64,000 nucleotides of DNA from Streptomyces marianii (lineage in GTDB: Bacteria > Actinomycetota > Actinomycetes > Streptomycetales > Streptomycetaceae), in contig NZ_VAWE01000001.1 in assembly GCF_005795905.1 (NCBI RefSeq), positions 4,262,001-4,326,000 of the forward strand. The letters are read 5' to 3'. The notes beneath the pieces were generated by a model. It worked only from the letters and a program-made list of their open reading frames with translations, searched no databases and was not told where the DNA came from. How positions within the stretch are numbered: the stretch's first letter is position 1; each line of letters starts with the position of its first letter. This document shows, piece after piece, positions 2,201-61,352 of the stretch. The position numbers and the translations under genes were made by a program.

Positions 2201-2223
2201 GACCGAGGACTGGGATCTGAGGC

Positions 2224-8310: not shown

Positions 8311-8355
8311 CCCTTCGGCGGGCGGCCGAGGCCCGTCCCCGATGCTTCCCGGGCG

Positions 8356-9225
8356 CTACGCCCGCGGCCGGGCTCCGTGCGACGCGGCGAGGAGCCGCTC
8401 GATGACGACCGCGACACCGTCGTCGTTGTTCGCCACGGTCCGGCCGGACGCGGCGGCGACCACGTCGGGGTGGGCGTTGCCCATGGCGAACGACGTGCCC
8501 GCCCAGGTCAGCATCTCCACGTCGTTCGGCATGTCGCCGAAGGCCACGACCTCGTCCGACGATATGCCGCGCTCCGCGCAGCACAGGGCGAGCGTCGAGG
8601 CCTTGGACACCCCGAGACCGCTCACCTCCAGCAGCGAGGTCGGGCTGGAGCGGGTGATGGTGGCCAGGTGCCCGGCGGCAGTGCGGGCCAGGTCGAGGAA
8701 GCCGTCGGGGACCAGTTCGCCGTGCTGGGCGAGCAGCTTGAGTACCGGGGCCGCGGACCCCGCCTTCTCCTCGTGCAGCAGCTTCTCGGCGACGGCGACC
8801 GTGGCGCCGGGGTCGAGGTGGAAGGGCGGGTAGCCGGGTTCGTAGTGGATCCCCGTGGCGGTCTCGACCGCGAACGAGGTTCCGGGTGCCGCGTCGCGCA
8901 GCCTCCGTACGACGTCGAGCGCGTTCCCGCGCCCCAGCGGACGGACCTCCAGGAGTTTCCCGCCGGCGTGCAGATCGACCACCGCCGCGCCGTTGGCGCA
9001 GATCGCCAGCCCGTGGCCGTGCACATGGTCGCTGACGACGTCCATCCAGCGCGCCGGGCGGCCCGTGACGAAGAAGACCTCGATCCCCGCCCTCTCCGCC
9101 GCCGCGAGTGCGGCGATGGTGCGCTCCGAGACGGACTTGTCGTCACGCAGCAGGGTGCCGTCGAGGTCGGTGGCGATGAGCCGGACGGTCGAGGGCAGTG
9201 GCAGAGGATCGGTAGCTGAGGTCAC
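8356..9225 (-). CDS. Cof-type HAD-superfamily phosphatase
   Basis: The 289-residue product has HAD motif I ([14 protein letters not shown]), motif II Thr in FFVTGRP, a long C2B cap domain between about residues 95 and 195, and motif IV FGDMPNDVEML with the metal-binding Asp pair. Cof-type members dephosphorylate sugar phosphates and cofactor precursors; the substrate here is unknown. The GTG start is chosen because GGGAG lies 9 bases upstream and the HAD motif begins about 18 codons later; the longer open frame upstream lies antisense to the LLM gene. A paralogue is next to serS at 25173-25976. Confidence 0.9.
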   Translation of the reverse strand: MTSATDPLPLPSTVRLIATDLDGTLLRDDKSVSERTIAALAAAERAGIEVFFVTGRPARWMDVVSDHVHGHGLAICANGAAVVDLHAGGKLLEVRPLGRGNALDVVRRLRDAAPGTSFAVETATGIHYEPGYPPFHLDPGATVAVAEKLLHEEKAGSAAPVLKLLAQHGELVPDGFLDLARTAAGHLATITRSSPTSLLEVSGLGVSKASTLALCCAERGISSDEVVAFGDMPNDVEMLTWAGTSFAMGNAHPDVVAAASGRTVANNDDGVAVVIERLLAASHGARPRA

Positions 9226-47368: not shown

Positions 47369-47459
47369 GGTGGGTTGCCCGAGCGGCCTAAGGGAACGGT
47401 CTTGAAAAACGTGAGGACGTGAAAGCGTCCCCGTGGGCTCGAATCCCACCACCTCCGCA
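47369..47459 (+). tRNA. Chimeric, probably non-functional tRNA-Ser(UGA) copy
   Basis: The 5' half, up to the anticodon loop CTTGAAA (anticodon TGA), is identical to the intact tRNA at 53702. The 3' half differs: the anticodon stem has a G-A mismatch, the variable arm is different, and the acceptor 3' strand CACCTCC pairs with GGTGGGT at only 4 of 7 positions. It ends GCA rather than GCCA. It looks like a recombinant of a native 5' half and a foreign 3' half at an integration site. An immediately preceding hairpin (47341-47366) parallels the one before the intact copy. Confidence 0.7.
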
Positions 47460-47550
47460 GGTCACAGACGTGCTGGTCAGAAGGAGTGCCCCTTCTGCGT
47501 GGAGGCTGTCTCACTCTGATCCGGCCGTGTCGCGTTGTGGATCAGTGCGT

Positions 47551-47572
47551 GTGGACCAGGCGTGGACCAAGA
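47551..47572. other. Probable integrase arm-type site, element 1
   Basis: A direct repeat GTGGACCAGGC-GTGGACCAAGA about 90 bases after the tRNA. The same paired motif occurs after the intact tRNA (53897-53918), before it (53618-53639), and in weaker form at 61084-61097. This spacing around core sites is typical of tyrosine-integrase arm sites. Confidence 0.55.
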
Positions 47573-47610
47573 ACCGGCGGACGGGGGCCGGGAACCTGCT
47601 GGTCAGCGGC

Positions 47611-47658
47611 CTGGGTGTATTGACACGCGTCGACAACCCCGCGGGTCGATACACCCAG
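47611..47658. repeat. 14-bp inverted repeat downstream of the serine hydrolase gene
   Basis: CTGGGTGTATTGAC (47611-47624) pairs with 47645-47658 with one G-T wobble; the loop is 20 nt. It lies between the element 1 arm site and the end of the serine hydrolase gene and may be a terminator. Apart from this and the arm site nothing is recognised in 47460-47784. Confidence 0.5.
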
Positions 47659-47784
47659 CGCGCCACGCGGTAGCCGGCTCGGCTCGCAACCGCTCGAACT
47701 CCTCCGCCAGGCCGCCGGAGACCAGCCGCATTGCCCCGCACCGCCGACAGTCTCAAACACGGCTAAGGGGCGTCCCGTGTGTCA

Positions 47785-48768
47785 TCAGCCGTTGTCGCGG
47801 CTGTGCTCAGCCAGAAGTGCGAACCCGTGACGGTCGACTGGTGCGGCGGTGGCCGAGAGGATGACGACGCCAGTGCCGGTGCTGCGGTCGAGTCCGAGCC
47901 AGGACCGGAAGCCGCCGGTTCCGCCGTTGTGCCAGGTGATCGGTTGGCCTTTCACCTGGACCGTGATCCATGCGGCGCCGATGTAGGCGTCCGTGCCGAA
48001 CGGGGCGATCGGATCGAGTGCGGTGATGCCCGGGGCGCTGCCGTCGAGCATCGCTGCTGTCATGCGGGCCATGCTGGTGATGGAGGCCCGGATGCCGCCT
48101 GCCGGTCCGAGTCCCTCGCCGGTCCAGGGTTGCCGCGGTCGCCCCCGGCGGCTTCTGCCGTTGAGCGCGCCGAGGCGAAGTTGGTCGACCGTGCCCGGGG
48201 CATAGAAGCAGTCGAGTTTCAGCGGGGTGGCGACGCGCCGGTGGACGAGCTGGGGGTAGGTCGTCGCGGCGGCATGGGCGAGGGCGTGGCCGAGTAGCTC
48301 GAACCCGAAGTTGGAGTAGCGGGGCCGCGGCTTGCCCGGCGGAACGTCCCGGGCCTGGTCGAGCAGCTGTTCGAGATCCTCGCCGTAAGGATTGGTTCCG
48401 CGTCGCCACAGGGCGATGGTGCGCCGCCATGGTTGCGCGGACTTGGGCAGCTGGGGCAGGCCGGACCGGTGCGTGCTCAGCGACCGCAGTGTCACTCGCG
48501 CGGCGGGGACGTCGCCCAGCGGCAGCAGCTCGCCAAGGGTCGCATCAGGGTCGATCTCGCCTCGGGTGAGCGCGTCGGCGTACAGCAGCCCGGTGACGCC
48601 CTTCGAGATCGAGCCGATCTCGAAGTCGGCGTTGAGGTCGGTGCCGCGGCCGACCACTGCCATGCCACGAGGAGAGACCACGGCCGCCGCGGCGACGGGG
48701 TGGCGTGGGCCTAATAGTTCGCCGAGCCTGGCAGCGAGCCTCTCGTCGCCATGGATCGCGGCGGTCAT
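47785..48768 (-). CDS. Serine hydrolase of the beta-lactamase class C/DD-peptidase family
   Basis: The 327-residue product has the three motifs of the penicillin-recognising fold: SISKG (SxxK nucleophile, near residue 53), RYSNFG (YxN) and WHNGGTGG (HxG). There is no signal peptide, so it is probably cytoplasmic and more likely an esterase or amidase than a resistance enzyme. Its start overlaps the stop of the HTH gene (ATGA), so the two are coupled. The pair is cargo placed between the att arm and the integrase terminator of element 1. Confidence 0.88.
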   Translation of the reverse strand: MTAAIHGDERLAARLGELLGPRHPVAAAAVVSPRGMAVVGRGTDLNADFEIGSISKGVTGLLYADALTRGEIDPDATLGELLPLGDVPAARVTLRSLSTHRSGLPQLPKSAQPWRRTIALWRRGTNPYGEDLEQLLDQARDVPPGKPRPRYSNFGFELLGHALAHAAATTYPQLVHRRVATPLKLDCFYAPGTVDQLRLGALNGRSRRGRPRQPWTGEGLGPAGGIRASITSMARMTAAMLDGSAPGITALDPIAPFGTDAYIGAAWITVQVKGQPITWHNGGTGGFRSWLGLDRSTGTGVVILSATAAPVDRHGFALLAEHSRDNG

Positions 48769-49001
48769 GACCGACCGTCGAACAGGCGTCGGCCGCCGTG
48801 CTTTTTGTGGACCGCCTGCTTCGAGACGCCCATGACGGCAGCGATTTGCGGCCACGTGGTGCCGTTGTTGCGGGCGCGGCGCACCAGTACAGCTTCGATG
48901 CGCTCCATCTCGGTGCGGAGCTGCGCCACGGCGCCCAATCCCACCAACGGGTCGTGGTCGGTCGTCGACGCCGCGAGTTCGGTCAACTGTTTCACATCCA
49001 T
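48765..49001 (-). CDS. Small helix-turn-helix regulator coupled to the serine hydrolase
   Basis: The 78-residue product has a helix (LGAVAQLRTEMERIEAVLVR) followed by a clear HTH, TTWPQIAAVMGVSKQAVHKK, and a basic end. It resembles small MerR/Sigma70-r4-like HTH proteins that accompany actinomycete enzymes. It overlaps the hydrolase gene (ATGA). Two palindromic sites directly in front of it suggest autoregulation. Confidence 0.8.
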   Translation of the reverse strand: MDVKQLTELAASTTDHDPLVGLGAVAQLRTEMERIEAVLVRRARNNGTTWPQIAAVMGVSKQAVHKKHGGRRLFDGRS

Positions 49002-49003
49002 GC

Positions 49004-49048
49004 GTCAACCATGGTTGACCACAACCCAGTCCGTCAATCAAAGTTGAC
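49004..49048 (-). promoter_or_regulatory. Twin operators in front of the HTH-serine hydrolase pair
   Basis: GTCAACCATGGTTGAC (49004-49019) is a perfect 16-bp palindrome touching the HTH start codon region. A second copy, GTCAATCAAAGTTGAC (49033-49048), keeps the GTCAA/TTGAC half-sites with the same 16-bp length, 29 bases away. Two like operators at nearly three helical turns suggest cooperative binding by the adjacent HTH protein. Confidence 0.7.
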
Positions 49049-49128
49049 GCCATTCCGAGACGGCGAGAAGGCGCCACCCTCTTCCTGGTAGGGGTGAGGA
49101 TGGCGCCTGTGGTCGAAGCGCCGCCGGT

Positions 49129-49719
49129 CTATTCGCCGTCGTCAGCCTCCAAGGCCCTCTCGATCTGTTCGTTCGCGCGCTGCTGATTGCGGTGGATGGC
49201 CTTGGCGTAGAAGCGGAACAAGACTGCGATGCTGTGGCCTGCCCGGCGTGCGACTTCTGCTGGGGAGACGCCGGACTCAAGCCAGAGCGAGACGCCCAGA
49301 TGACGCAGGGAGTACGGCACGTCAGCCAGGGGGGAAGCCGCTTCGGATTCGGTCAGCACCGCGAGTCGAGCCGCTTTCCAAACCTCCCCGTACTCCTTGG
49401 ACAGCAGGCCGCCACCCTGGGCCGCAGGGTACAGCCGGCTGTCTTCAGCGGTGCCGAACTCCTTGATGTGCTCGCGGACCAGGCGCACGAGCACGGGGGG
49501 AATCGGCACAGGCCGGGTTGCCTTGCGGGCCCGCTTCTTCAGGCCGCGCGTATCGAACGACTCGCCTGTGTCGGTCCACCCGGAGCCGACGCGGGGTGTG
49601 CTCGTGGACAGCAGCACTTCTCCCCAGCCCTCTTCGGACAAGGTGAAGTCTTCTTCCCGGAGATTGGCCACCTCCCCAGGGCGGTTGGCCGTAGTGGGTG
49701 TGTCGTTGATATTAGACAC
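49129..49719 (-). pseudogene. int: Tyrosine integrase, C-terminal fragment (element 1)
   Basis: The fragment (about 190 residues) holds the catalytic domain end: the first Arg region RPGEVANL, then VPYSLRHLGVSLWLESGVSP (H-x-x-R type box), GHS and the nucleophile region LFRFYAKAIH. The N-terminal core-binding half is absent; the frame instead joins a transfer-protein fragment near 49690-49720. An imperfect hairpin at about 49069-49107 follows the stop. It is closely related to the remnant at 54080-54412. Confidence 0.85.
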
Positions 49720-50074
49720 TCCCGGCGTCGGTGGGCACGTGAGTCGTTGGCGTGATCAGCGGGTCTACGCGCACCCCGCGCAGCATGACGTGTCCGGGCT
49801 TGTCTCCCGGCAGTGCTGACACGCGGGTCATACGCCAGGCATCAGCCAGGTAGGGGGCCGCTTTCTGATATTGCGCCAGGCCGCCGCCCGGCAGACAGGT
49901 CGCCCGCGCGATCACCCCGAACGCGTCATGCGTGACCTTCAGCGTGGGTACCAGGACGCGGGGCTTGACGGGCTTGCCGCATCGTGCTCCATCCGTCGGG
50001 GCTTCTTCCCTTGACCTCATGTATTCAGCTACGGCCGTGACTTGATGCCCCGACAGAAGAAGGGTGCCTCCCAC
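49712..50074 (-). pseudogene. FtsK/SpoIIIE-type transfer protein fragment
   Basis: About 85 residues (KPRVLVPTLKVTHDAFGVIA, then GGLAQYQKAAPYLADAWRM and KPGHVMLRGVRVDPL) resemble the N-terminal part of the AICE transfer proteins of the TraB/FtsK family, upstream of the ATPase domain. The ATPase itself is missing. The fragment abuts the integrase remnant on one side and the IS on the other, showing a deletion that removed the element's core. Confidence 0.6.
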
Positions 50075-50131
50075 CTGCGATGATCTGGATTTCCTAGATC
50101 AAAACCGTCGCAGAGAAGAGACACCCAACAG

Positions 50132-51592
50132 GTGCAGGCTACCGAATGGGATCACCGGCTTGCCGTGCGGGCCGATGGCAAGAACCTGACCGGCCACGCG
50201 GGCGTGGTGCTGCTGCGGAAGGTCGCCGACCGCGTCGGCCTGGCCACCGTGCTCAGCGCGGCGCTGCCGAAGGGCACTGGGCCTGGCTGGCGTGACCGGG
50301 GCATGGCGCTGGTCCAGCTGGCCTGTGCGATCGTGCTCGGCGCGACGAACATCCTGGAAGCCGAGCAACTACAGCACCACTGGAAGAGCCTGTTCCCGCG
50401 GCCGGTCTCGGACAGCACCCTGCGCCGCACTCTGGAGGCGATCGACGGTCCGGTGGCGGCGCGGATCGAGCGCGTGCGCGCCGTGGTCCGGCGCATGGTG
50501 TGGACCCTGCTCGCCCTGCGCCCCGGCGGCTTCCCTTGGATCGCGGTGTGCGGCAGAGAACTCACCGGCTGGTACGTCCTCGACCTCGACGCCACCATCG
50601 TGACCTGTAGCAGCAAGAAGGAGGGTGCGGCCGGCACCTTCAAGGGCAGCTTCGGCCGCATGCCGCTGGGAGCGTGGGTGGCCAACACCCGCGAGTGTGT
50701 CGCCATGCTGCTGCGACCCGGCAACGCGCCGCCGAACGATGTCGACGACCACAAGAGTGTCCTGGCCTCGGCGTTTCGGCAGCTCCCGCTGCCGCTGTGG
50801 TCGAAGCTGCTGATACGGATCGACGGCGCGGCCTTCAGCCACGACGTCCTCGGCCACCTCCAGAGCCTGACCACCAGCCGGCGCCGGGTGCGCTGGGTGA
50901 CCGGCTGGGCCATCAACGACGCCGACGAGAAGGCCATCGCCCGGCTGCCGGAGAAGGTGTGGACGGCGGCGCTGCGGCAAGACGGCCAACTGCACGAGAT
51001 CAAGGGCCCCGACGGCGAATGGCTGTCCTACCAGGTCGCTGAGCTGACCGGGGTCCGTGACCTGACCGGCTGGCCCCAGGGGATGCGGTTGATCGTGCGC
51101 CGGGTCAAGCCCTCGCGCCGGGATGCGAAGAAGCTGACCGCCTTCGAGAAACGCACCGGCTGGCGCTACCAGATCGTCGCCACGAACATCCCCTCCCACC
51201 AGGGACTTTCAGGGGTACCCGGCTCCGGCCAGGTCTGGTTCGTCGACGCCCTGTACCGCGATCACGCCGAGGTCGAGGACCGCGTCAAAGCGATCAAGCG
51301 GGTCGGCCTCGGGCTGCTGCCCTCGAAATCCTGGCAGTTCAACGCCGCCTGGGTGCTGGCCGCCACGCTCGCCGCCGACCTCGACGCCTGGACCCGGCTC
51401 CTCCTCCTGCACGACGAGCCCGAACTCGCCGCCGCCGAACCGGAGACGATCCGCAGGAAGCTCTACCACCTGCCCGCCCGCCTCACCTCCCACGCCCGCC
51501 GCCGCACCCTCCACCTTGACCGCACCTGGCCCTGGGCGGCAGCGTTCACCGCCGCCTGGAAGCGAGCCACCGAACTCCCGGCCCGTACCTGA
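50132..51592 (+). CDS. IS1380-like transposase
   Basis: The 486-residue product is a full-length DDE transposase. Candidate catalytic residues: Asp in YVLDLDATIV (near residue 151), Asp in LIRIDGAAF (near 230) and Glu in YRDHAEVEDRVKAIKRVG (near 380). GLGLLPSKSWQFNAAW and the final LPARLTSHARRRTLHL match the IS1380 pattern. Start GTG 50132. It interrupts element 1. The flanking ends (probably near 50075 and 51765) were not resolved by eye, as no convincing terminal inverted repeat was found. Confidence 0.85.
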   Translation: MQATEWDHRLAVRADGKNLTGHAGVVLLRKVADRVGLATVLSAALPKGTGPGWRDRGMALVQLACAIVLGATNILEAEQLQHHWKSLFPRPVSDSTLRRTLEAIDGPVAARIERVRAVVRRMVWTLLALRPGGFPWIAVCGRELTGWYVLDLDATIVTCSSKKEGAAGTFKGSFGRMPLGAWVANTRECVAMLLRPGNAPPNDVDDHKSVLASAFRQLPLPLWSKLLIRIDGAAFSHDVLGHLQSLTTSRRRVRWVTGWAINDADEKAIARLPEKVWTAALRQDGQLHEIKGPDGEWLSYQVAELTGVRDLTGWPQGMRLIVRRVKPSRRDAKKLTAFEKRTGWRYQIVATNIPSHQGLSGVPGSGQVWFVDALYRDHAEVEDRVKAIKRVGLGLLPSKSWQFNAAWVLAATLAADLDAWTRLLLLHDEPELAAAEPETIRRKLYHLPARLTSHARRRTLHLDRTWPWAAAFTAAWKRATELPART

Positions 51593-52153
51593 CGACCGGC
51601 CACCACCCCGACGACACCGGAGAGGAGAGGACCGCAGCACCCCCGGGGCCCGTGGAACCCGACGCCCCGCAGCGTCACGCGACGGCCAGTCCCGACACGG
51701 CACGGGACATACCGGGCAGCCAGCCGCACACGGCGACGCCGTCACGCCACCGAAGAATCGAGGTTGACGGTACCCAGACCGCACGCTGCGTGTGCAGTGC
51801 TCCAAGTCAGTGAATACCCCGATGCCTGGGCCAGCCTCCCCTATGGTGGCCCAGACCTGCCGTCGTCCGCAGCAGCGCCGTCTTCAGGATCCCGATTCAT
51901 CCGAGTGTTCAGTAGTCCCACGGCCGCGGGTACGTTGAAAGAGGTGCCTTGTCAGCAACGCCACCCAGGCCGCCAGACCGAACGCCGCGATGCACCGCAG
52001 CCAGGGCTCGGGTGCCGCTACTGGCGGCCGCCCACCCATAGAGCAGAATGTTGAGACTCATCCAGCCCGGACTATCGAAGAACTCCCCCACATTTCGCGA
52101 CATCTCCGCCCTCCCTCCTCGCATGTTTCCTGCGCAGGCCGAGCAAGACCTGC
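51593..52153. other. Non-coding stretch after the IS, with degenerate small-membrane-protein DNA
   Basis: No gene can be supported in these 561 bases. A minus-strand frame ending at 51909 has a hydrophobic part (GWMSLNILLYGWAAASSG) and may be a truncated relative of the small membrane proteins next to it, but it lacks a ribosome site. The right IS end should be in the first 180 bases. Confidence 0.4.
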
Positions 52154-52447
52154 TCAGGATCCGTCCCATATCCCCAGACGCTTGAGCCTGCGCTGCCGGA
52201 GCCGCTCTGACGCCGCTGTGAGACCAAAGATGAGTCCTAGGGACAGCCCGAAGAGCGTCGCGATGAGGATGTCCTCCAACTCCGCCTCATCAGAGAGCAT
52301 TACGAAGAAGAGCACAAAGAAGAGCGCGGCGGGGGCGCCCACGCACAAACCGGCTTTGATCGGGTGTCGGCCCACCCACTTCTGGAACCGAGTCGGACGC
52401 CGCTGCCCGCCCAGAACCCGATCCAGAGCCCAGAACGCACTCGTCAC
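52154..52447 (-). CDS. Small membrane protein, 97 aa
   Basis: The product has two membrane helices (about residues 33-50, AGLCVGAPAALFFVLFFVML, and 60-80) separated by an acidic DEAELEDI turn, with basic ends. It begins with GTG seven bases after the stop of the 268-aa membrane protein gene, so the two are likely co-transcribed. No function is assigned. Confidence 0.65.
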   Translation of the reverse strand: MTSAFWALDRVLGGQRRPTRFQKWVGRHPIKAGLCVGAPAALFFVLFFVMLSDEAELEDILIATLFGLSLGLIFGLTAASERLRQRRLKRLGIWDGS

Positions 52448-52453
52448 AGACCG

Positions 52454-53260
52454 CTACCAGTTCGCCAGGTAGCGGGGCCAGGTGCCGGTGTCGGCGGCCC
52501 TGCTGGGGGCGGGTCTGCGGCTGTGTCGTCCGGGGTTGTGTCTCTCCCGGCGCTCGACGACGAGCCAGACCGCGGGCAGCAGCGCCAGCCACAGCAGCGC
52601 CACGACTACCGGTCCGGTTCCGGTCTCGTAACCGATGATGCCCGCCGGCACAGAGGCGAATACGGCTCCCATGGTCCATCGGCCCCGGGGTGCCACCCAG
52701 TCGGGCAGTGATCGCCGCCGTGCGTGGCGTACCGCCGTGGCCCCCGCGAAACCGCCGTAGCCTCCCACGGTCAGCAAGTCGAGCGCGAAGGCAGTCTGGA
52801 TTTCGGGCCAACCCTCCGGGGTGTCGGTGGACTCCTGGGTCACGCCGTCCTTGGTGACGGCCGTCGCGTAGTCGCGCCAGACGGTCACCGTGACGTGGTC
52901 GCCTTTACGCAGATGCTTCAGCAGCGGGACCTCGTCGTCCATGTCGAGTTCCGCGGGAATCGGAGGCGGGCCGTCGAGCTTGAGCAGATACAGCTGACTC
53001 CGGCCCTGGTTCTCGACGGCCGTTCCGCGCACCGTCGCGGGGTAGGTGCGCAGGCAGTCGGCCGCGACGGCCGCCGGGAAGGTGCACGGCCGGGCGGAGC
53101 GAAAGGCCCGTACCTCGTTCACCGAGTCCGGCACGGTGACCAGGACCACGACGCCTGTCGCGCCTGCCATGACGGCCAGCGGCACCACGAGCAGCCCCCA
53201 GGCCCGGTTCCACCATGCGCGCCGACGCCGCCGCGCCTCCGCTCTCTTGCTCCTGCTCAC
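52454..53260 (-). CDS. Membrane protein of unknown function, 268 aa
   Basis: After a strongly basic start (SRSKRAEARRRRRAWW) come one helix (about residues 20-45), an exposed domain with three Cys, and three further helices near 160-180, 195-212 and 215-235, ending in a basic tail. GGGAGG 4 bases before GTG 53260 supports this start over an upstream ATG. The layout (exterior domain between helices) is similar in style to the 633-aa protein at 10886, but no common motif is clear. Confidence 0.7.
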   Translation of the reverse strand: MSRSKRAEARRRRRAWWNRAWGLLVVPLAVMAGATGVVVLVTVPDSVNEVRAFRSARPCTFPAAVAADCLRTYPATVRGTAVENQGRSQLYLLKLDGPPPIPAELDMDDEVPLLKHLRKGDHVTVTVWRDYATAVTKDGVTQESTDTPEGWPEIQTAFALDLLTVGGYGGFAGATAVRHARRRSLPDWVAPRGRWTMGAVFASVPAGIIGYETGTGPVVVALLWLALLPAVWLVVERRERHNPGRHSRRPAPSRAADTGTWPRYLANW

Positions 53261-53344
53261 CGGGCCTCCCTTCCGCTTCCGCCCCCGTTCGCGGGTGGGC
53301 ATATTGAGCCACAGTGCCTTCCCCGGCACGTAGGCGGGACCACA

Positions 53345-53600
53345 GCATGATCCGCACACAGGTGTTTGCCGGAACCCGGCAGCAAGAGGTTTGGTGTCCG
53401 CCTCCCGCCAGGCCGATCCTTGTCGGCGAGGATCACCTGCCCGGCCCGGACGAGGCGGTGGTCGCGTTCCAGAGTGCGGCCATCACCTCCCGCTCGCCGA
53501 GTTTCGGGTTGGCCAGGCACCAGGTGACGGGCATGCCCTCGGCGGTGGTGACCAGGTAGAGCCGAAAGCAGCCACAGGAGTGTCTGGCCGTTGGCCCTCA
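53345..53600 (-). pseudogene. IS transposase remnant (IS982-like)
   Basis: Pieces of a transposase are readable in shifted minus-strand frames: LVTTAEGMPVTWCLANPKLG followed by EREVMAAL, then in another frame the DNA for a VILADK segment. GMPVTWCLANPK is typical of IS982-type enzymes. Start, ends and catalytic core are missing, so it is dead. Confidence 0.6.
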
Positions 53601-53617
53601 CAGCCAGAAGCCAGCCA

Positions 53618-53639
53618 GTGGACCCCGTGTGGACCAAGG
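53618..53639. other. Probable integrase arm-type site left of the intact tRNA
   Basis: GTGGACCCCGT-GTGGACCAAGG is the same paired motif as at 47551 and 53897, about 60-80 bases before tRNA-Ser(UGA). Confidence 0.5.
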
Positions 53640-53701
53640 AGCCCGCGCGACGCCCGAGCCCGGTACTCTGTAGCCGTTCCGCCCCTGGTAGGCGGGACGG
53701 A

Positions 53702-53789
53702 GGTGGGTTGCCCGAGCGGCCTAAGGGAACGGTCTTGAAAACCGTCGTGGCGCAAGTCACCGTGGGTTCAAATCCCACACCCACCGCCA
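53702..53789 (+). tRNA. tRNA-Ser(UGA)
   Basis: Acceptor GGTGGGT/ACCCACC is fully paired, discriminator G and encoded CCA are present, anticodon stem ACGGT/ACCGT surrounds loop CTTGAAA (anticodon TGA), and there is a long variable arm and T-loop TTCAAAT. This is an intact class II serine tRNA. A hairpin (53674-53700) directly precedes it. Its 3' half is the integration site for element 2. Confidence 0.95.
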
Positions 53790-53896
53790 GGTCAGCGTAT
53801 GTGCTGGTCACAAGGGGTGTTCCGATTCCGGGGCGCCCCTTTCCCACGGACCTGTCTCACCGTGATTCGCCTCTGTCACGTCGTTGATCAGTGTCT

Positions 53897-54079: not shown

Positions 54080-54412
54080 CTACTCGTCGTCGGCTGCTTC
54101 CAAGGCCCGCTCGATCTGCTGGTTCGAGCGATGCTGGTTGCGGTGGATGGCCTTGGCGTAAAAGCGGAACAAGACCGCGATGCTGTGGCCAGCGCGACGG
54201 GCGACCTCGGCGGGCGAGACGCCCGAGTCGAGCCAGAGTGAGACACCAGCGTGCCGCAGCGAGTACGGAACATTCGCCAGGGGCGAAGCAGCTTCAGGCC
54301 CTGTCGGAACCTCCTCCCGCGCGGCCTGCCAGACCTCCCCGTACTCCTTCGACAGGAGGTGTCCGCCCTGGACCGCACGGAAGAGGCGGCCGTCCTCGGC
54401 GACGCCGCGGCA
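54080..54412 (-). pseudogene. int: Tyrosine integrase, C-terminal fragment (element 2)
   Basis: The readable part, in order, is HLLSKEYGEVW, NVPYSLRHAGVSLWLDSGVSP, ARRAGHSIAVLFRFYAKAIH (with the nucleophile Tyr), and the end IERALEAADDE. It is close to the element 1 integrase fragment. Upstream (higher coordinates) the homology ends in DNA that has been tandemly duplicated, so the N-terminal two thirds are gone. Confidence 0.82.
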
Positions 54413-54692
54413 GAGATCCCCGGATTCATGGGCACACGGCAGTCAGCGCATCGGTATGGGGCTGGTCAAGGGGTCCGCGCGGCGGAGCTGTTCAGAGTTT
54501 CTTTACTGGATCCAGACCTCCCCGTACTCCTTCGACAGGAGGTGTCCGCCCTGGACCGCACGGAAGAGGCGGCCGTCCTCGGCGACGCCGCGGCAGAGAT
54601 CCCCGGATTCATGGGCACACGGCAGTCAGCGCATCGGTATGGGGCTGGTCAAGGGGCCCGCGCGGCGGAGCTGTTCAGAGTTTCTTTACTGG
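54329..54692. repeat. 182-bp tandem duplication in the decayed integrase
   Basis: 54329-54510 and 54511-54692 are identical except for one position (T at 54471, C at 54653). The unit includes a piece of the integrase and unrelated DNA. The near identity shows a recent event. Confidence 0.93.
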
Positions 54693-55198
54693 ATCAAGGC
54701 GGCCCGCTGACGCGGGCCGCGCGCGCTGGCGGCCCGGGGCCGCCGCCCGCTCCTGTCTACCGCCCCGCTGGCACCGGCCCCCAACCGCTCAGCGCGCAGC
54801 CCGAAGGAGCGGACGCACCAGACCCGCACGGAAGTCCGACCGGGCCACCAGACAGCTCCGCACCAAGCAGCCGAACACGACGCCCCGACATCCACCCCGG
54901 GCAGCCCCGCCACCAGCCCGAGCCCACCGGCCAACCCCCTGTGGCCGGGGCGGACGGCTTCCACGGCTTTACCCACCTGTTCGGCCCGGGGCCCGCGTCG
55001 AGCAAGGCCAGGGGGCCACTCGGACACATTGCGGGCAGGGGACAAGCCTGCCCGAGTTGCCGGGCAGCGTACGGCCCCCTGACCATGCCCGACCCCAACC
55101 CGAACAGGACACCGGCCAAAGCCGCTCCGGCCGACCGCGATGCGCAAGCGCGGCAGCCGTCACCAAATGCCAAAGACGGGGCGGGAGTTAACGCACGC
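54693..55198. other. GC-rich stretch without recognisable genes
   Basis: Long open frames exist on both strands because of extreme GC content, but none has a ribosome site, conserved motif or normal codon pattern. Probably remnant DNA of the element's former transfer or replication region. Confidence 0.4.
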
Positions 55199-55230
55199 GA
55201 GCCCCAGCGCGGAGGGGTGCGCTGGGGCTC
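55199..55230 (-). terminator. Terminator of the peptide/cupin/AKR/phosphotransferase operon
   Basis: GAGCCCCAGCGC (55199-55210) pairs perfectly with 55219-55230 over 12 bp; the loop is 8 nt. It lies 16 bases after the phosphotransferase stop on the minus strand. Confidence 0.82.
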
Positions 55231-55246
55231 GTATGGGAGGCGCCAA

Positions 55247-56098
55247 TCAGGCGGTCGGATGGGCCGGGGCCGGAGAACGGACGCCCGTCAGTTCCTCCGC
55301 GCGTCGGCGTAGGAGCGGGGCCAGCTCGACGTACCAGCCACGGCCCACGGCCTGGAGCATTTCGGCGAGGGCGATCTGTTCGCCGATCCGGCCGGCGGGG
55401 GTGTCGAGGATGTGGGCGAACTCGGCACGGATGCGGTCGGCGACGGCGGGGACGCGGAGGCTGTTGACGTAGAGCATCGCAGAGTCGTAGCCGACAGGGA
55501 CGGCGCCCCAGCGCTCCCAGTCCAGGATGACGAGCGGGTCATGGGTGAGGTTGGCCCACTGTAGGTCGGCGTGCCCGGTGACGCGTTCGGTGATGGCCGG
55601 GGCGGGGATGCCCAGGAACTCGGGGAAGACCCGGTCGGCCCAGGACTGGCGGATGGTCTCACGGGGCGGTTCGGCGGTGCTGAGGGCGTCCAGGCTCTCC
55701 CGCAGGGTCGTCCACCAGGAGTCCGGCAGGCCCGGATCCGCGGTGAGGTCGGGTGTTTCCGGGGAGATGACGGGCTGGGCGATGTAGTCGATCAGCTCCG
55801 CCTCGAAGACGTACGCGCCGCCGTCCCAGCGGTGCAGGTCGTGGAGGTGCGGGCGGGACACCTTGTCGGACACCCGTTCCTCGGCGAGGGCGATCCCCTC
55901 GTTCCGGGTGGCGGGGGTCTTGGCTGCCTCGCCGCAGTGGACGCGGAGCCAGTGGCCGCCTGCGGTGCGGCTGCCGATGGTGCGGCCCAGCCATCCCCAG
56001 GCCGGCGCCCCCGTCGTTGTGGTGGAGAGATGGGCAGCGGCGTGGGCCAGGGCGTCCTCCATGCGTGCCCTGGTGGTCTCATCCTTGGGCGAGTACAT
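55247..56098 (-). CDS. APH-family phosphotransferase
   Basis: The 283-residue product has the kinase core of aminoglycoside phosphotransferase/choline kinase enzymes: VTGHADLQWANL (catalytic Asp in the HxDxxxxN motif, near residue 185) and VILDWERWG (metal-binding Asp). The N-lobe is short and its ATP-lysine is not obvious. GGAAGG upstream of ATG 56098 supports the start. It overlaps the end of the aldo/keto reductase gene by 20 bases. APH-fold enzymes phosphorylate Ser/Thr of precursor peptides in thioamitide and class V lanthipeptide pathways; here the substrate could equally be a small molecule. Confidence 0.85.
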   Translation of the reverse strand: MYSPKDETTRARMEDALAHAAAHLSTTTTGAPAWGWLGRTIGSRTAGGHWLRVHCGEAAKTPATRNEGIALAEERVSDKVSRPHLHDLHRWDGGAYVFEAELIDYIAQPVISPETPDLTADPGLPDSWWTTLRESLDALSTAEPPRETIRQSWADRVFPEFLGIPAPAITERVTGHADLQWANLTHDPLVILDWERWGAVPVGYDSAMLYVNSLRVPAVADRIRAEFAHILDTPAGRIGEQIALAEMLQAVGRGWYVELAPLLRRRAEELTGVRSPAPAHPTA

Positions 56099-56972
56099 CG
56101 GTGACCTTCCTGAGGTGGCCCGGATCGAGCGGGGCGGCAACGGTTGCCTTTGCGGCGGCCCAGTGGGGAGCGGTGCCAGCAGACAGCAGTACCACGTCCA
56201 GGCTCGGGCAGGAGGCCGCAGCGAGGAGACAAGCGGTGCCCGGAGAGGCCCCCGGGCGGATGAACTCGGAGAGTTCTGGTGTGACGAGGCCGGGCAGTTC
56301 GCCGCCGTGCAGAGGCGAGGAGCCGAAGGTGATCAGGCCCGCCGCACGAGCCAGGACGAGCGGGCCCCTGCCGTCGAGGGCGAGGGCGATCGGCCTTGCC
56401 ACGACGAGGCTGACCGGCTGTTGGACGGCCCGGAGGTGATGTTCACCCAAACCAGCGGCCTCCATGGCCAGCCCCAGGAGTTCGGACACGGAGAAGGCGT
56501 CATGCTGGAACCCCGACCAGGTGGCCACGCCGTACCCGCCGATCCGGCCCGCAGCAGCGAACTCCTCCAACACCGCGAACACTTCACGAAGCGCCGAATG
56601 CAGCTCCGAGGGTCGAAGGCCGGCGTGCTCCGGGTTGTGGACGAACACGAGGTCGATCCGGCCGAGAGCGACCAGGGACCGTTCCGTCTGCCAGCGGACG
56701 AAGCCGGGGTCGAGGCTGTGTCCTGCCCGGACCTGGGCGGCGGTGAGGACCCCGGCCCGAAGAGCAGCCGCGCCCTCATCCGGGGTGAAGAAGCCCGTCT
56801 TCGTCGCCACCATGGCGCGCGGATGGTCGGCGATGACGGAGCCGAGCGACTGGTGGGCACTGCCGTAGTTGGGGGCGGTGTCGATCCACACGAGCCCGTC
56901 GGCGCACGCAGTGCGAGCCGCCTGTTCGACAGCGCGCACCCGGTACGTTCCCAGCCCCAGGGAAGCGGTCAA
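56079..56972 (-). CDS. Aldo/keto reductase
   Basis: The 297-residue product has the AKR tetrad: Asp and Tyr in WIDTAPNYGSAHQSLG, Lys in MVATKTGFF and His in LVFVHNPEHAG, on a TIM-barrel. It resembles the AKR subgroup fused or linked to biosynthetic genes rather than housekeeping reductases. A TTG start overlapping the cupin gene stop (TTGA) fits best, as the first barrel strand follows directly. It is translationally coupled to both neighbours. Substrate unknown. Confidence 0.85.
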   Translation of the reverse strand: MTASLGLGTYRVRAVEQAARTACADGLVWIDTAPNYGSAHQSLGSVIADHPRAMVATKTGFFTPDEGAAALRAGVLTAAQVRAGHSLDPGFVRWQTERSLVALGRIDLVFVHNPEHAGLRPSELHSALREVFAVLEEFAAAGRIGGYGVATWSGFQHDAFSVSELLGLAMEAAGLGEHHLRAVQQPVSLVVARPIALALDGRGPLVLARAAGLITFGSSPLHGGELPGLVTPELSEFIRPGASPGTACLLAAASCPSLDVVLLSAGTAPHWAAAKATVAAPLDPGHLRKVTDVLAQG

Positions 56973-58150
56973 GAGGAGCCCCCGACCACGGCGACGGCTT
57001 GACCGGCAACCAGCGCGGAGACGACCTCCGCCACCTGGACGAGGGTGAGGCCGGACTCGGCGGCCAGGTCCGCGAGGGTGGCCGGCGGGCCACCAGCGAG
57101 CAGGCGGAGGACCGGGGCGACGGAGAGGGCGAAGGTCCACTCGTTCCCTGCCCCGGCGAAGGTCACGGCCTGGTCGTCCTCGATCCGGGCACGGGGCACC
57201 GTGGCCTGCACGGTGATGCCCGGTTCGGCAGGAACGGCGGTGAGGTGTGGCAGCGACAGGCGCGGGCGCCCGGGGTGCGTCGCGTCCAGGGACGTTTCCC
57301 AGCGGGCCAGAACCGCAGGGTCGTCCAGGGCGGCCAGTACGTCCCTCCGTACGGCAGCCAGGTAGTCCGCACGCTCCTCCGGGGTGCCGAAACGCGGTAC
57401 GTCCGCCCGGACGGTCACGCTCGCCCGCAGGTCGTCGCACAGCCAGCCCAGGAACTCGGCTCCGGTCTGCGTGGCGAGTCCGAAGGTGAGGTGGAGGGAA
57501 GCGGTGCCCTGGTCGGCGCTCACGGCGTGCCACCAGCCGCGCGGGAGATAGAGCAGGTCGCCGGGCGTCATGACGATGTCCGCGATCGGCTCGCCGGTCG
57601 GGGCCTCGGGTGCTTCCATGTCGCGCCAGGCGGGGGACTGCCGGGTGGGGCCGTAGATCTTCCACCGCTTGGAGCCTTCGAGCTGGAGCACCACCACGTC
57701 GTGGTCGTCCCAGTGGGTGCCAAAGCCTTCCTCGGCGGTCCACGAGGCGTACGCGTTGACCTGCACGGGGGTGCGGAAGAACCGTTCGAGGCCGGCGGCG
57801 GCTTCCCGGACGGGCGGGTGGATCTGGTCGATCGCGTCGATGACCAGGGACGCGCCCTCGGCGAGCCGGGCATGGAACTCGGCAGGCTGGGGCTGGTACC
57901 AGGACACCCCGCGACGGTTCGTGCGGAGGATCGAGTATGCCGTGGCCGGGACAGCCTGCCCAGCACGCGAGAGCCGCATCCGAGGCGGTTCGAGCCGGTG
58001 AGCGGCCACGATCTCGTTGAGGTCGTCCCAGGTCAGCGGCGAGGGGAAGGTGGTGCCGTTGGAGCGGATCACTTTGTGGACCCGGAAGCACGTCTGGGCG
58101 AGGAACGTGTCCCCGCCCAGACGCTCGGCCCACGATGCCGAATCAATCAC
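56969..58150 (-). CDS. JmjC/cupin-fold oxygenase (ROXA/YcfD-like)
   Basis: The 393-residue product has the Fe(II) triad of 2-oxoglutarate oxygenases: His and Asp in GTHWDDHDVVVLQLEG (near residues 145-147) and His in YLPRGWWHAVSA (near 207). A C-terminal winged-helix-like domain (about 320-393, TLADLAAESGLTLVQVAEVV) follows, as in the ribosomal oxygenases YcfD/ROXA that hydroxylate Arg or His residues. This makes a peptide or protein substrate plausible. GTG start with GAGGAGA upstream. It directly follows the 43-aa peptide gene. Confidence 0.88.
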   Translation of the reverse strand: MIDSASWAERLGGDTFLAQTCFRVHKVIRSNGTTFPSPLTWDDLNEIVAAHRLEPPRMRLSRAGQAVPATAYSILRTNRRGVSWYQPQPAEFHARLAEGASLVIDAIDQIHPPVREAAAGLERFFRTPVQVNAYASWTAEEGFGTHWDDHDVVVLQLEGSKRWKIYGPTRQSPAWRDMEAPEAPTGEPIADIVMTPGDLLYLPRGWWHAVSADQGTASLHLTFGLATQTGAEFLGWLCDDLRASVTVRADVPRFGTPEERADYLAAVRRDVLAALDDPAVLARWETSLDATHPGRPRLSLPHLTAVPAEPGITVQATVPRARIEDDQAVTFAGAGNEWTFALSVAPVLRLLAGGPPATLADLAAESGLTLVQVAEVVSALVAGQAVAVVGGSS

Positions 58151-58169
58151 CGTGGGTCTCCTCGGTCGA

Positions 58170-58301
58170 TCAGGTGTCGTTCATGTCCGACTTGCCGCCC
58201 GTGTTGTCCGAGGCTTCCTCGGCACGCGAGCGGGCCGCGGCGATGCGGCGGACACCGATCAGCAGACCGCTGGTCTGCTCGGTGGGAGCGTTCTCGTTCA
58301 T
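58170..58301 (-). CDS. 43-aa peptide, candidate RiPP precursor
   Basis: From ATG 58301 the product begins MNENAPTEQTSGLLIGVRR, continues with an Arg/Ala helix (IAAARSRAEEAS) and ends DNTGGKSDMNDT. AAGGAG lies 6 bases upstream, a far better ribosome site than most genes here. It is 19 bases ahead of the JmjC/cupin gene. Charged flanks around a hydrophobic-basic centre (LLIGVRR) and the small size suit a modified peptide precursor or a regulatory peptide. No similar precursor is known to me. It is too short for standard gene callers. Confidence 0.7.
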   Translation of the reverse strand: MNENAPTEQTSGLLIGVRRIAAARSRAEEASDNTGGKSDMNDT

Positions 58302-58326
58302 CCCGTACTCCTTCCTGATCTCGATG

Positions 58327-58343
58327 GGTCCCCCCGGGGGACC
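58327..58343 (-). promoter_or_regulatory. Compact hairpin in the peptide gene leader
   Basis: GGTCCCCC-C-GGGGGACC forms an 8-bp symmetric stem between the 49-aa membrane peptide stop and the ribosome site of the 43-aa peptide. It could protect or separate the peptide message within the operon. Confidence 0.5.
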
Positions 58344-58360
58344 GGAGGGAAATCTGTGGT

Positions 58361-58510
58361 TCAGCTCCTCGAATTTCCAGCTACGGCCAGGGCGACCACC
58401 AGGACGCTGACCGCGACGACGTACAGGAAGACGGCGAGCTGTTGACGCCAGCCCCAGGGGGCGCGTGCGGTCAGCCGCGTTCCAGGCTGGAGGGGTCCTC
58501 GACCACCCAC
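58361..58510 (-). CDS. 49-aa single-pass membrane peptide
   Basis: A small frame with a clear membrane helix (QQLAVFLYVVAVSVLVVALA, about residues 23-42) after a basic N-terminus (RLTARAPWGWR). It overlaps the end of the 75-aa protein gene in another frame and starts most probably with GTG at 58510; the ribosome site is weak. The hydrophobic codons keep the high-GC third-position pattern, which argues for real coding. Its role could be export, anchoring or self-protection for the cassette. Confidence 0.5.
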   Translation of the reverse strand: MGGRGPLQPGTRLTARAPWGWRQQLAVFLYVVAVSVLVVALAVAGNSRS

Positions 58511-58698
58511 TCCACCCCACCGCCCTCCGGCCGGGCGAAGACGGCGTTCTGCATGACCACACGAGTCTTCGGGTCCTCGAACTCGCCGATGAACTGCACG
58601 ATGCCGGTGCGGCCCTTCACCGGGTCACGGATGAGGGTGCCTTCGCTGACCCAGCCGGGCACGGTCTGACGCTGACGATTGCGGCTCTTCGTGGACAC
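58471..58698 (-). CDS. Small conserved hypothetical protein, 75 aa
   Basis: The product begins with a basic stretch (STKSRNRQRQTVPGW) and has a small beta-rich core (GTLIRDPVKGRTGIVQFIGE, then GGGVEWVVEDPSSLE). Streptomyces XRE-type regulator loci often carry short proteins with a G-x-L-x-x-D ... GGGxEW pattern; this is one of that style. GTG start. It is the first gene of the minus-strand operon, divergent from the XRE regulator. Confidence 0.7.
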   Translation of the reverse strand: MSTKSRNRQRQTVPGWVSEGTLIRDPVKGRTGIVQFIGEFEDPKTRVVMQNAVFARPEGGGVEWVVEDPSSLERG

Positions 58699-58742
58699 TG
58701 CGCCTTACCTCGGTCTCGGTCGGGCTCTGCAATCCAGGGACA

Positions 58743-58788
58743 CAGCGGGCCGCAGGTGTGACGTTGCGGACGGTCCTGCGGCCCGCTG
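58743..58788 (-). promoter_or_regulatory. 14-bp inverted repeat in the divergent promoter region
   Basis: CAGCGGGCCGCAGG (58743-58756) and its exact reverse complement at 58775-58788 enclose 18 bases. It lies 45 bases upstream of the 75-aa gene start on the minus strand and 150 bases before the XRE gene. It is a candidate attenuator or regulator site for the cassette. Confidence 0.6.
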
Positions 58789-58938
58789 CGATGGGGAGGC
58801 CGCCTCTCCGGGCGGCTGAGATCAGTCAACTCCGCTGGCCAGGCGCCCAACAGGGCATTCCTCTAGGCACGTTGCAGGCACCCAGAAGGCAGATTGCGGC
58901 TACGCTTTCGGCGCCCGACTCGACCAGCGGACGGCGGG

Positions 58939-60246
58939 ATGATGGCGAACGAAGCTCTTCGTAGACGCAGAGACGCCCAGCGATGGACTCAGGCCCAGGT
59001 CGCGGAGCGCGTCTGCGCTCAGGTTCAGGCCGCAACCGGGCGCGATCCGGAGCTCGATGCGAACTGGGTGTCCCGTCTTGAGCGTGGAGCCATCACGTGG
59101 CCTTCCGGCGAATACAGGGCGGCCTTGTGCGTGGTGTTCCAGGTCGCCAACGAGGCGGAGCTGGGCCTCTATCCGAAGGGGTCCGCCGCACCAGAGGAAA
59201 GGCCGGCCGCAGAGACCCCGCCTGATGATGTCCGATCGCTGGCCGCCGATACGGAGCTGTCCGCCCGGTTGACTCGGCATGCGGCGGAGACCAACGTCAA
59301 CGCCCTCGTGCTGGAGGAGTTCGACGCGGACGTTGAACGACTCGCGCGGGACTTCGTCAGCCGTCCTCTGTCTCTCCTAGTCCCGGAGATCCGCACGGCT
59401 CGTACTGAGGTGTTCCGGTTGCTGGAGGGCCGACAGCAGCCCAGCCAGACTCGGCACCTGTACGTGGTCGCGGGGTGGCTATCCGGTCTCGCGGCGCATG
59501 TTTCGCTCGACCTGGGGGACCGCTCCGCCGCAGCTACGCATGCCCGCACTGTGGTGCAGTGCGCGGAGATCTCCGAGCACTCACCGTTACGCGCGTGGGC
59601 ACGGTCGTTCCAGTCACTGGCCGCCTACTGGGCGGGGGACTACCGGCGGGCAGGAGACCTTGCGCAGGCCGGCCAGAGCGAGGGTCGAGGCCCCGGCACG
59701 GGAACTATCAAAGCCCGGCTGCTGAGCTTGGAGGCACGGGCTCGCGCAGCCGAGGGCGACAACCGCAGCGCGCTGCGGATACTGGCACTGGCCCAGGAGG
59801 CGCGGGGTGCTGCGGGACCCGACGAGTTGCCCGGGGTCTTCTCGTTCCCCGAGGCCAAGCAGTGGACCTACGCCGGGACCACGCTGTTGGCCGTCGGGGG
59901 CGACGAGCAGATCCGGCACGCCATAAGCGCGTCCGATCGTGCCGTGGAGCTGTACCAGGCTGGGCCGGAAGGCGAGCGCTCCCCCGGCGATCTACAGGCC
60001 GCCCATCTGGACCTGGCCACGGCCTACCTTGCCAGCGGTGAGGTCGAGGGAGCCGCTGCGAAGCTCTCGGAGGTGTTCACCGCCGAGGGATATACGGCGA
60101 GCATCACCATCAGGCTTCGCAATCTGGCCGCACTCCTCGGAAGCGAGCCGTACCGTGGCGCACAGTCGGCAGTCAGTCTCCGCGCGCACATCCACGAGGT
60201 GACCGTCCGGCCTGCTCTCGCCAGCAACCCCACGGAGTCCCGATGA
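58939..60246 (+). CDS. XRE-type regulator with TPR-like sensor domain
   Basis: The 435-residue product has an N-terminal HTH (NEALRRRRDAQRWTQAQVAE, then NWVSRLERG) and a helical TPR-like domain (about residues 150-430), a build used by peptide- or signal-responsive regulators in Streptomyces. ATG at 58939 (or 58942) is preferred; a -10-like TACGCT near 58899 would put the transcript start just before it. It contains an in-frame TTA codon at 59587-59589 (residue 217), so translation should depend on the bldA tRNA. It overlaps the methyltransferase gene (ATGA). Confidence 0.88.
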   Translation: MMANEALRRRRDAQRWTQAQVAERVCAQVQAATGRDPELDANWVSRLERGAITWPSGEYRAALCVVFQVANEAELGLYPKGSAAPEERPAAETPPDDVRSLAADTELSARLTRHAAETNVNALVLEEFDADVERLARDFVSRPLSLLVPEIRTARTEVFRLLEGRQQPSQTRHLYVVAGWLSGLAAHVSLDLGDRSAAATHARTVVQCAEISEHSPLRAWARSFQSLAAYWAGDYRRAGDLAQAGQSEGRGPGTGTIKARLLSLEARARAAEGDNRSALRILALAQEARGAAGPDELPGVFSFPEAKQWTYAGTTLLAVGGDEQIRHAISASDRAVELYQAGPEGERSPGDLQAAHLDLATAYLASGEVEGAAAKLSEVFTAEGYTASITIRLRNLAALLGSEPYRGAQSAVSLRAHIHEVTVRPALASNPTESR

Positions 60247-61064
60247 CCACCCAGCCCAAGCATGATCATTTGGTCACCGACCGCAACCTTCTTTCGAGCA
60301 AGGCGTACGGCACGGGTCAGCACTTGGCCGCGCGCCAGTCCCTCTACCAGTGGCAGACGCCGCGGCATGATCTTCCGGGCATCGTGGTGAACGAACTGGT
60401 CGGCATACACGGCGCGGTCGCGGATGTGGGTTGCGGTAACGGCAAGTTCGTCGCCCGGGTACGGGAGGACCGTCCCGACTTGGCCGTGCTGCCCATGGAC
60501 GTGTCCCACGGCATCCTCGGTGCCATCCCGGTAGCCGTCGTCGCGGACGTCCAACAGCTCCCCATCGCCGATGGAGTCCTCGGCGCGGTCCTTGCGCTAC
60601 ACATGCTGTACCACGTCGAGGACCAGGCCCAGGCCGTGCGGGAGCTGGGCCGTGTACTCGCGCCCGGCGGCATCGCGATCGTCTCCACCAACAGCCAGAC
60701 CGACAAGCGGGAACTGGAGCACCTTTGGCGCCAAGCCGCGGGGGATGTGCTCGGCATTCCGGAGGGGCCGGCACGAGTGCAGCTGTCCGCCCGCTTCACC
60801 CTGGAGGATGCCCCGACGATCCTCGGAGCGGTTTTCGGCGACATCCGCACGATCCCCCTCCCCGGGGTGATCGAGGTGACCGACGCTGAACCGGTCGTCG
60901 CGCACTTGGCCTCATACGAAGCCTGGGCGGACAAGATGGGTGTTCCGTTCCTGGAGACGATCGAGCGTGCACGGGAGCGGGTCAACGAGATCATTCAGGC
61001 AGAGGGCGCTTTCCGCGTCACGTGCCTGGGCGGCATACTCGTCTGCCAGGGACCACAGCGGTAG
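60243..61064 (+). CDS. SAM-dependent methyltransferase (class I)
   Basis: The 273-residue product has the SAM motif I VADVGCGNGKFVARV near residue 60, an acidic strand end (LPMDVS), motif VADVQQLPIADGVLGAVLAL and LGRVLAPGGIAIVSTNS, in the Methyltransf_11 style. It is coupled to the XRE regulator by ATGA. Substrate unknown; it may modify the product of the divergent operon or a small molecule. Last gene before the right attachment site. Confidence 0.88.
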   Translation: MTTQPKHDHLVTDRNLLSSKAYGTGQHLAARQSLYQWQTPRHDLPGIVVNELVGIHGAVADVGCGNGKFVARVREDRPDLAVLPMDVSHGILGAIPVAVVADVQQLPIADGVLGAVLALHMLYHVEDQAQAVRELGRVLAPGGIAIVSTNSQTDKRELEHLWRQAAGDVLGIPEGPARVQLSARFTLEDAPTILGAVFGDIRTIPLPGVIEVTDAEPVVAHLASYEAWADKMGVPFLETIERARERVNEIIQAEGAFRVTCLGGILVCQGPQR

Positions 61065-61180: not shown

Positions 61181-61237
61181 TCTTGAAAACCGTCGTGGCA
61201 GCGATGTCACCGTGGGTTCAAATCCCACACCCACCGC
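61181..61237 (+). other. tRNA-Ser(UGA) 3'-half remnant, attR of element 2
   Basis: The sequence matches the anticodon loop through discriminator of tRNA-Ser(UGA) at 53733-53787, with a short difference only in the variable arm. The 5' half of a tRNA is absent. It is the right boundary of element 2 and of the accessory region. Confidence 0.9.
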
Positions 61238-61352
61238 AGGTGAACGGCCCCTGAACAGGCAACTCGGTCGGGGGCCGCTGTGCTGCCGCTGCCTGCTGAC
61301 GACTGTTGTTCCCCGTGGCTTCCCGCTTGATGGGGCACGCCAGGGGGCACGG

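Follow-up and report, generated by a model that had tools for sequence, protein, structure and literature searches.

A candidate RiPP-type operon built around a JmjC oxygenase and an Asp-rich peptide in an integrated element of Streptomyces marianii

Introduction

Why would a mobile element carry a 43-residue open reading frame (ORF) directly in front of genes for a JmjC oxygenase, an aldo/keto reductase (AKR) and an APH-like kinase? The question is raised by an operon of Streptomyces marianii located in a 64,000-nucleotide stretch of contig NZ_VAWE01000001.1 (positions 4,262,001 to 4,326,000, assembly GCF_005795905.1), here called the window, in whose numbering all coordinates are given. The operon spans 58698 to 55247 on the minus strand and stands opposite a divergent regulator–methyltransferase pair; all of the ORFs described in a first-pass annotation of the sequence are present. 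That annotation had proposed that the enzymes act on the short peptide. The comparison with relatives favors, with a probability of about 0.72, a pathway of the type that yields ribosomally synthesized and post-translationally modified peptides (RiPPs), in which the oxygenase, reductase and kinase would modify the 43-residue peptide.

A conserved peptide gene ahead of the oxygenase

The precursor-like peptide is encoded at 58170–58301 on the minus strand, and comprises the leader motif LLIGVRRIAAARSR and the core SDNTGGKSDMND. The tight spacing claimed for the genes that follow it is borne out, with a gap of 19 nucleotides (nt) between peptide and oxygenase, a 4-nt overlap between oxygenase and reductase when the reductase start that best fits its relatives (56972) is used, and a 20-nt overlap between reductase and kinase from the conserved kinase start at 56098.

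The linkage of peptide and enzymes was tallied at loci whose JmjC match spans at least 300 profile positions, after removal of those whose JmjC proteins are at least 90% identical. Among the 79 dereplicated loci, peptide relatives occur in all 71 that have an APH-like kinase and in one of the eight that do not, so that the conserved small ORF looked for directly before the oxygenase in homologous operons is indeed there. Part of these loci had been fetched through the peptide itself, hence a separate tally of the 57 that had not, with the peptide in 49/49 loci with the kinase and 1/8 without it. These tallies test linkage and not homology, because members of the tallied set also went into the profiles. 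The undereplicated collection of 103 loci, near-duplicates and overlapping stretches included, holds 93 with kinase and peptide, seven with neither, two with the peptide only (L075, L202) and one with the kinase only (L173).

A similar picture emerges from whole genomes. With a profile hidden Markov model built from 32 peptides, 40 of 295 Streptomyces genomes yielded a total of 45 matches. Of these, the 41 with E < 1e-12 (2e-22 to 6e-13, from 37 genomes) are each immediately followed by a JmjC gene when compared by eye; this holds for none of the remaining four, which are weak (1.5e-4 to 8.7e-4) and the only matches of three further genomes. A profile of Streptomyces and family peptides made without members of the class family f17 recovers the peptide at seven f17 loci, with E values of 4e-14 to 3e-17. 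Between close relatives (16 distinct of 20 sequences, 118 pairs), mean nonsynonymous divergence is 0.041 and mean synonymous divergence 0.237, a ratio of about 0.17. Together, these comparisons indicate that the 43-residue ORF is a real gene under purifying selection, in agreement with the proposal of a genetically encoded precursor-like ORF conserved with its enzymes.

Within the family of the window's operon (family 1), variation of the peptide is greatest in its first 10–15 residues, and conservation extends over leader motif and core alike. In most of these peptides Asn-Asp stands at the C terminus or close to it, Cys occurs in two of the 32 aligned, and at the motif-bearing loci the ORF ends 10–24 nt before the JmjC gene.

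The modifying enzymes and their known relatives

The oxygenase (56969–58150, minus strand) belongs to the Fe(II)/2-oxoglutarate-dependent JmjC enzymes (PF08007, JmjC_2, E 9.2e-31) and carries a C-terminal winged-helix-like domain. His146, Asp148, His208 and Lys161 are invariant in 50/50 aligned sequences; the lysine presumably has a role in 2-oxoglutarate binding. The predicted model, with a mean predicted local distance difference test score of 91.6, has NO66, MINA53 and YcfD as its best matches in the PDB, all of which are side-chain hydroxylases of proteins. Strands within residues 313–340 are followed in the model by helices at 342–352, 359–366 and 370–382, a succession that would fit a winged helix or a RiPP recognition element (RRE).

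The reductase (56079–56972, minus strand; start chosen from relatives) matches PF00248 with an E value of 1.8e-11, obtained in a first scan from the upstream start at 56993. Its Asp38, Tyr43, Lys65 and His119, which we take to be the catalytic tetrad, are invariant in 30/30 sequences. The kinase (55247–56098, minus strand) matches PF01636 at E 0.036, which is under the cut-off, and its HxDxxxxN (H, D, N) and DWE (D, E) motifs are invariant in alignments of 35/35 and 30/30 sequences. Its profile found no match among PDB sequences at 0.001, so the assignment rests on the motifs and the weak Pfam match. Since the catalytic residues are intact across relatives, as the proposed enzyme set requires, all three enzymes are probably active. 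In six annotated plasmid records, the parts of the operon are labeled as unrelated or hypothetical proteins.

NO66, MINA53 and YcfD/ROX share with the window's oxygenase the PF08007 JmjC fold, the 2-His-1-carboxylate site, the conserved lysine and the C-terminal winged-helix-like domain, but they modify ribosomal proteins according to their PDB entry titles, and identity in the structure-match alignments is 17–24%. To our knowledge, no oxygenase of this type has been paired with a small peptide gene, and the context of the operon argues for a peptide, not a ribosomal protein, as the substrate.

JmjC or cupin-like hydroxylases are on record in RiPP biosynthesis, namely BipG and PbsQ (PMC12707348, PMC12257519), of which BipG acts on Orn in the biphenomycin pathway (PMC12707348); these papers describe, as proposed here, a ribosomal precursor that is hydroxylated on a side chain by a JmjC oxygenase within a RiPP cluster. 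The partners named there are a multinuclear non-heme iron-dependent oxidative enzyme (MNIO), a B12-radical SAM enzyme, an arginase and a protease, in contrast to the reductase, kinase and Asp-rich precursor found here. MNIO, B12-radical SAM and arginase genes are not annotated in the six records, and F-R-F is absent from the aligned peptides. A PF01636 phosphotransferase is likewise part of RiPP clusters for class V lanthipeptides and thioamitides, SprPT being one example (PMC7794033). Those pathways differ in that no HopA1-type lyase, YcaO or flavoprotein decarboxylase is annotated beside the six annotated operons, and in the scarcity of Cys in the peptides. Bacterial PF08007 relatives, fused to an RRE, have also been placed in RiPP-like contexts by the RRE-Finder update (PMC12710340), whose remark on them names no peptide, reductase or kinase.

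In searches of an open-access library, biphenomycins and that one general remark were the only cases found of JmjC enzymes in RiPP pathways, and the words cupin, aldo and JmjC are all absent from the main text of the decRiPPter paper. The operon is classed as a candidate for a new family of RiPPs, one that places an already known type of enzyme in new surroundings.

Related families and operon variants

Distant JmjC homologues, about 26–34% identical, define a second, paralogous family with its own reductase, kinase and small ORF. One of its loci (L092) lies in the window's own genome. Family-2 peptides such as GLLVAVEELTAVHDRYDSLRSDNAGSSGDAPWPGGDGNLTDIE have the leader motif and SD in common with family 1, and matches to them occur in 42/295 genomes, some as decayed copies: the JmjC gene is broken or missing in L193, L194 and L195, and L202 ends early. 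The kinase gene is usually encoded opposite to the other genes, with L158, L161 and L172 as same-strand exceptions, and most peptide ORFs lie about 74–97 nt upstream of the JmjC gene.

Two further, unnamed class families, f17 and f18, contain relatives that share the leader motif and the Asp-rich core. The f17 peptides, for example LLVAVEEIAVARSRGEQPSDGGGTGRSDLNDNAHH, bridge families 1 and 2. In f18, the leader is the same and the core may be shortened (e.g., SDSDGSDG). The 13 f18 loci were fetched through the peptide and were kept outside the 79-, 103- and 57-locus tallies; one of them, L236, gave no JmjC match. In all eight kinase-less f18 loci (L224, L227–L232, L235), a convergent gene of one cluster follows, and the three of its products compared with Pfam are Suc_Fer-like ferredoxin-type proteins. 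Reductase and kinase are both missing beside the JmjC homologues of L080, L087, L088, L091, L156, L165 and L167. At three of these loci, whose JmjC proteins are close relatives of one another (L156, L165 and L167), the JmjC gene follows a different, unrelated small ORF that the three share, ending in VPDFTQMFGDSVK or similar. As judged from gene content, the reductase, the kinase and the ferredoxin-like partner are the variable parts of the system, and the JmjC enzyme and the peptide the constant ones.

Site of modification and proposed pathway

As JmjC and peptide stay while the reductase, kinase and ferredoxin-like genes vary, the JmjC enzyme would perform the founding step. Asp32 is the best candidate for its target, being the sole core residue kept in 22/22 selected precursors of all groups, and Asp hydroxylation is the likeliest first step. 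Hydroxylation at Arg, which the first-pass annotation had considered possible, does not hold as a general feature: the corresponding core position is Arg in 24, Lys in 19 and Val in 10 of 53 family-1 cores, and Arg was therefore rejected as a site common to the cores. Conserved Arg residues do occur in the leader motif, but these would serve recognition rather than being a site of modification.

In the proposed pathway, the enzymes would recognize a conserved hydrophobic, probably helical segment, whose majority form is L-[LIV]-x-A-V-E-x-L...R. The JmjC enzyme would then hydroxylate the β-carbon of Asp32 and perhaps of other core Asp or Asn residues, the kinase would phosphorylate a core hydroxyl, either that of Ser/Thr or the newly made one, and the reductase would alter a carbonyl or alcohol state arising on the way. 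A probable switch for the operon is the divergent XRE-TPR protein. The residue before Asp39 may be connected with the reductase, since it is Gly in 7/7 loci that lack the enzyme and Ser or Thr in 44/46 that have it; L138 and L145 break this rule, and the pattern is only suggestive of an action of the reductase on that residue, because its loss is a single event on the tree. Finally, as the core hardly varies within a family, the product is probably dedicated to one invariable target or role, unlike a diversified antibiotic.

Several observations weigh against a RiPP pathway of this form. No protease or exporter was seen to recur in the six annotated records or, by eye, among 23 recurrent gene clusters judged by their first residues, although the listing of these clusters also missed many reductase genes and is thus of low sensitivity; with neither seen beside the operon, leader removal and export lack an explanation. 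Conservation is higher in the core than at the N-terminus, which is the opposite of the usual RiPP pattern. The locus L173, removed at dereplication, has JmjC and kinase without the peptide (1/94 kinase-bearing loci), 8/13 f18 loci lack the kinase, and two of these (L231 and L232) gave no reductase match. The alignment behind Asp32 is gapped, its 22 precursors were chosen for it, and the site is assigned from conservation alone. As to novelty, a description of a JmjC–AKR–kinase peptide class was looked for in the open-access literature and none turned up, consistent with the earlier claim that no described class has this set, but a description in a subscription journal could be missed in this way.

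Alternative explanations

The strongest of the alternatives, though an unlikely one, holds that the modified peptide acts as a signal, within or between cells, to which the neighboring XRE-TPR regulator responds, similar to RRNPP systems, and which times transfer or expression of the element. The regulator (58942–60246, plus strand) belongs to the NsdA family (NF053720, 124.4 bits, cut-off 75). Divergent relatives stand within 4.5 kb of the operon in 43/71 dereplicated loci and in 32/49 of those retrieved independently of the peptide, compared to a family total of 42 matches over an entire genome of 9.0 Mb, though these counts lean upward since the profile was made from neighbors of the operon, and 28/71 loci have no such neighbor. 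A signal would also suit the fixed core, the occurrence on plasmid records, the relaxase genes near two family-2 loci and the weak match of the regulator profile to RapF (E about 3e-4). Yet a receptor should track its ligand, and beside 16 close operons, whose JmjC proteins are at least 78.7% identical and whose peptides are 83–100% identical to that of the window, five regulator groups are found; the regulators of 9/15 of the other close operons have no BLAST match at 1e-5 to that of the window. As five groups stand beside near-identical peptides, the XRE-TPR protein, a probable regulator of the operon, is taken to be an exchangeable switch rather than a receptor of the peptide.

PEARL scaffolds and LysW-type amino-group carriers are peptides or proteins on which small molecules are made, and the 43-residue peptide could, in analogy, be a carrier or scaffold for building or releasing a small molecule. 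A fixed core, the Asn-Asp near the C terminus of most family-1 peptides and the presence of an oxidoreductase together with a kinase would fit this idea. It is nevertheless improbable, given that the annotation of the six records shows neither an ATP-grasp ligase nor a LanB-like enzyme in the vicinity of the operon, and that several peptides run on past the last Asp.

The product might instead be a ribosomal metal ligand, with core Asp residues converted to β-hydroxyaspartates that bind Fe(III) or another metal. β-Hydroxyaspartate is a known siderophore ligand, and each of the 22 aligned cores contains more than one Asp. On the other hand, an iron-box consensus has no match in the window at up to three mismatches, a kinase would be unexpected and neither exporter nor receptor was seen, all of which make this explanation quite improbable.

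Least probable of all is that the enzymes form a small-molecule trio and the short ORF is a leader or attenuator peptide coupling translation, for which the 10–24 nt between ORF and JmjC gene in family 1 would be suitable, given that the amino-acid sequence is kept across class families up to f17 (matches of 1e-14 to 4e-17 to a profile made without f17 peptides) under purifying selection, that the JmjC enzyme has a protein-hydroxylase fold, and that the distance of about 74–97 nt in most family-2 loci is too long for simple translational coupling.

Accessory genes

The class I methyltransferase assigned by a domain scan (60243–61064, plus strand) is coupled to the regulator gene by a 4-nt overlap and had been proposed to act on the peptide as well. 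It occurs in 41/295 genomes and, by coordinates, adjoins the operon in four of these 41, so that it was rejected as a core enzyme; it is a separate, accessory module that travels with one type of regulator, also in the distant Streptacidiphilus loci L069, L072 and L079.

Two small ORFs upstream of the peptide had been counted as parts of the operon, and are found mainly in its closest relatives. The 75-residue protein (58471–58698, minus strand), chiefly a gene of the closest clade, was rejected as a core component with any match in only 5/61 relatives and a place beside the operon in G000, G014 and G012; L060 also carries a relative. The 49-residue ORF (58361–58510, minus strand), which has one hydrophobic stretch and overlaps the former, was rejected likewise, its relatives standing beside close operons only. 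Hydrophobic small ORFs were counted in 12/72 loci, compared to 8/72 on the antisense strand, in an insensitive scan that missed loci such as L039, where a relative is present.

As for the terminator said to close the operon, a strong terminator-like hairpin (55198–55231, minus strand; −35.6 kcal/mol, z −5.95) lies 3' of the kinase gene, and a clear U run is missing from it.

The integrated element and its relatives on plasmids

As previously proposed, the operon lies in an integrated element; this measures 7.45 kb and is flanked by a direct repeat of the 3' end of tRNA-Ser(TGA), with 62 columns and 93.5% identity. According to a repeat search, the left copy (53733–53792, plus strand) lies within and just beyond the tRNA gene and the right copy (61181–61241, plus strand) corresponds to its 3' end; 32 bp are identical between them (53756–53787 and 61206–61237). 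Inside the element and adjoining the left repeat is the C-terminal remnant of a tyrosine integrase (54083–54274, minus strand). By itself it has no Pfam match, and it is named after a 510-residue PF00589 protein of the same genome, with which it is 54% identical over 57 residues. A 183-bp tandem duplication, 99% identical (54329–54694), overlaps the region of the remnant.

The integrase fragment recurs at 49132–49323 with 88% identity, and tRNA-Ser-like DNA is found at eight places in the genome, counting the tRNA gene and the right repeat; the site may therefore have taken up elements more than once. The stretch 47369–53787, with an 81% tRNA-Ser-like sequence and the second integrase fragment, suggests an older integrated element at the same site, next to the present one.

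In a plasmid collection, 34 records cover at least 80% of the JmjC query; all 20 of those listed come from Streptomyces. No phage record matched, and a phage origin was rejected. The set of genes appears to be cargo that plasmids and integrated elements disseminate. The relaxase genes (PF03432) near family-2 loci, at 49–1698 in L095 and 9034–10755 in L179, are consistent with mobilizable elements. In L179 (G279:C111, about 971–7641) and L197 (G169:C23, about 2403–8909), a complete family-1 operon lies between remnants of a family-2 operon. On one side are the kinase and the reductase end, and on the other what is left of a family-2 peptide, an arrangement that looks as though one system had inserted into the other or taken its place.

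Implications

For genome mining, the operon provides a simple rule, namely to look for a JmjC_2 gene preceded by a short ORF with an Asp-rich core of the SDGG type at its end; the rule reaches family 1 in 37/295 and family 2 in 42/295 Streptomyces genomes, as well as f17 and f18. More tentatively, these families may represent a new actinobacterial RiPP superfamily, mobile and defined by a JmjC enzyme and a near-fixed Asp-rich core with modular tailoring, the product of which would be a cofactor, metal ligand or signal of fixed function and not an antibiotic. The natural losses of reductase and kinase offer built-in tests of which enzyme does what, and the presence of a fixed modified peptide on mobile elements calls for an explanation.

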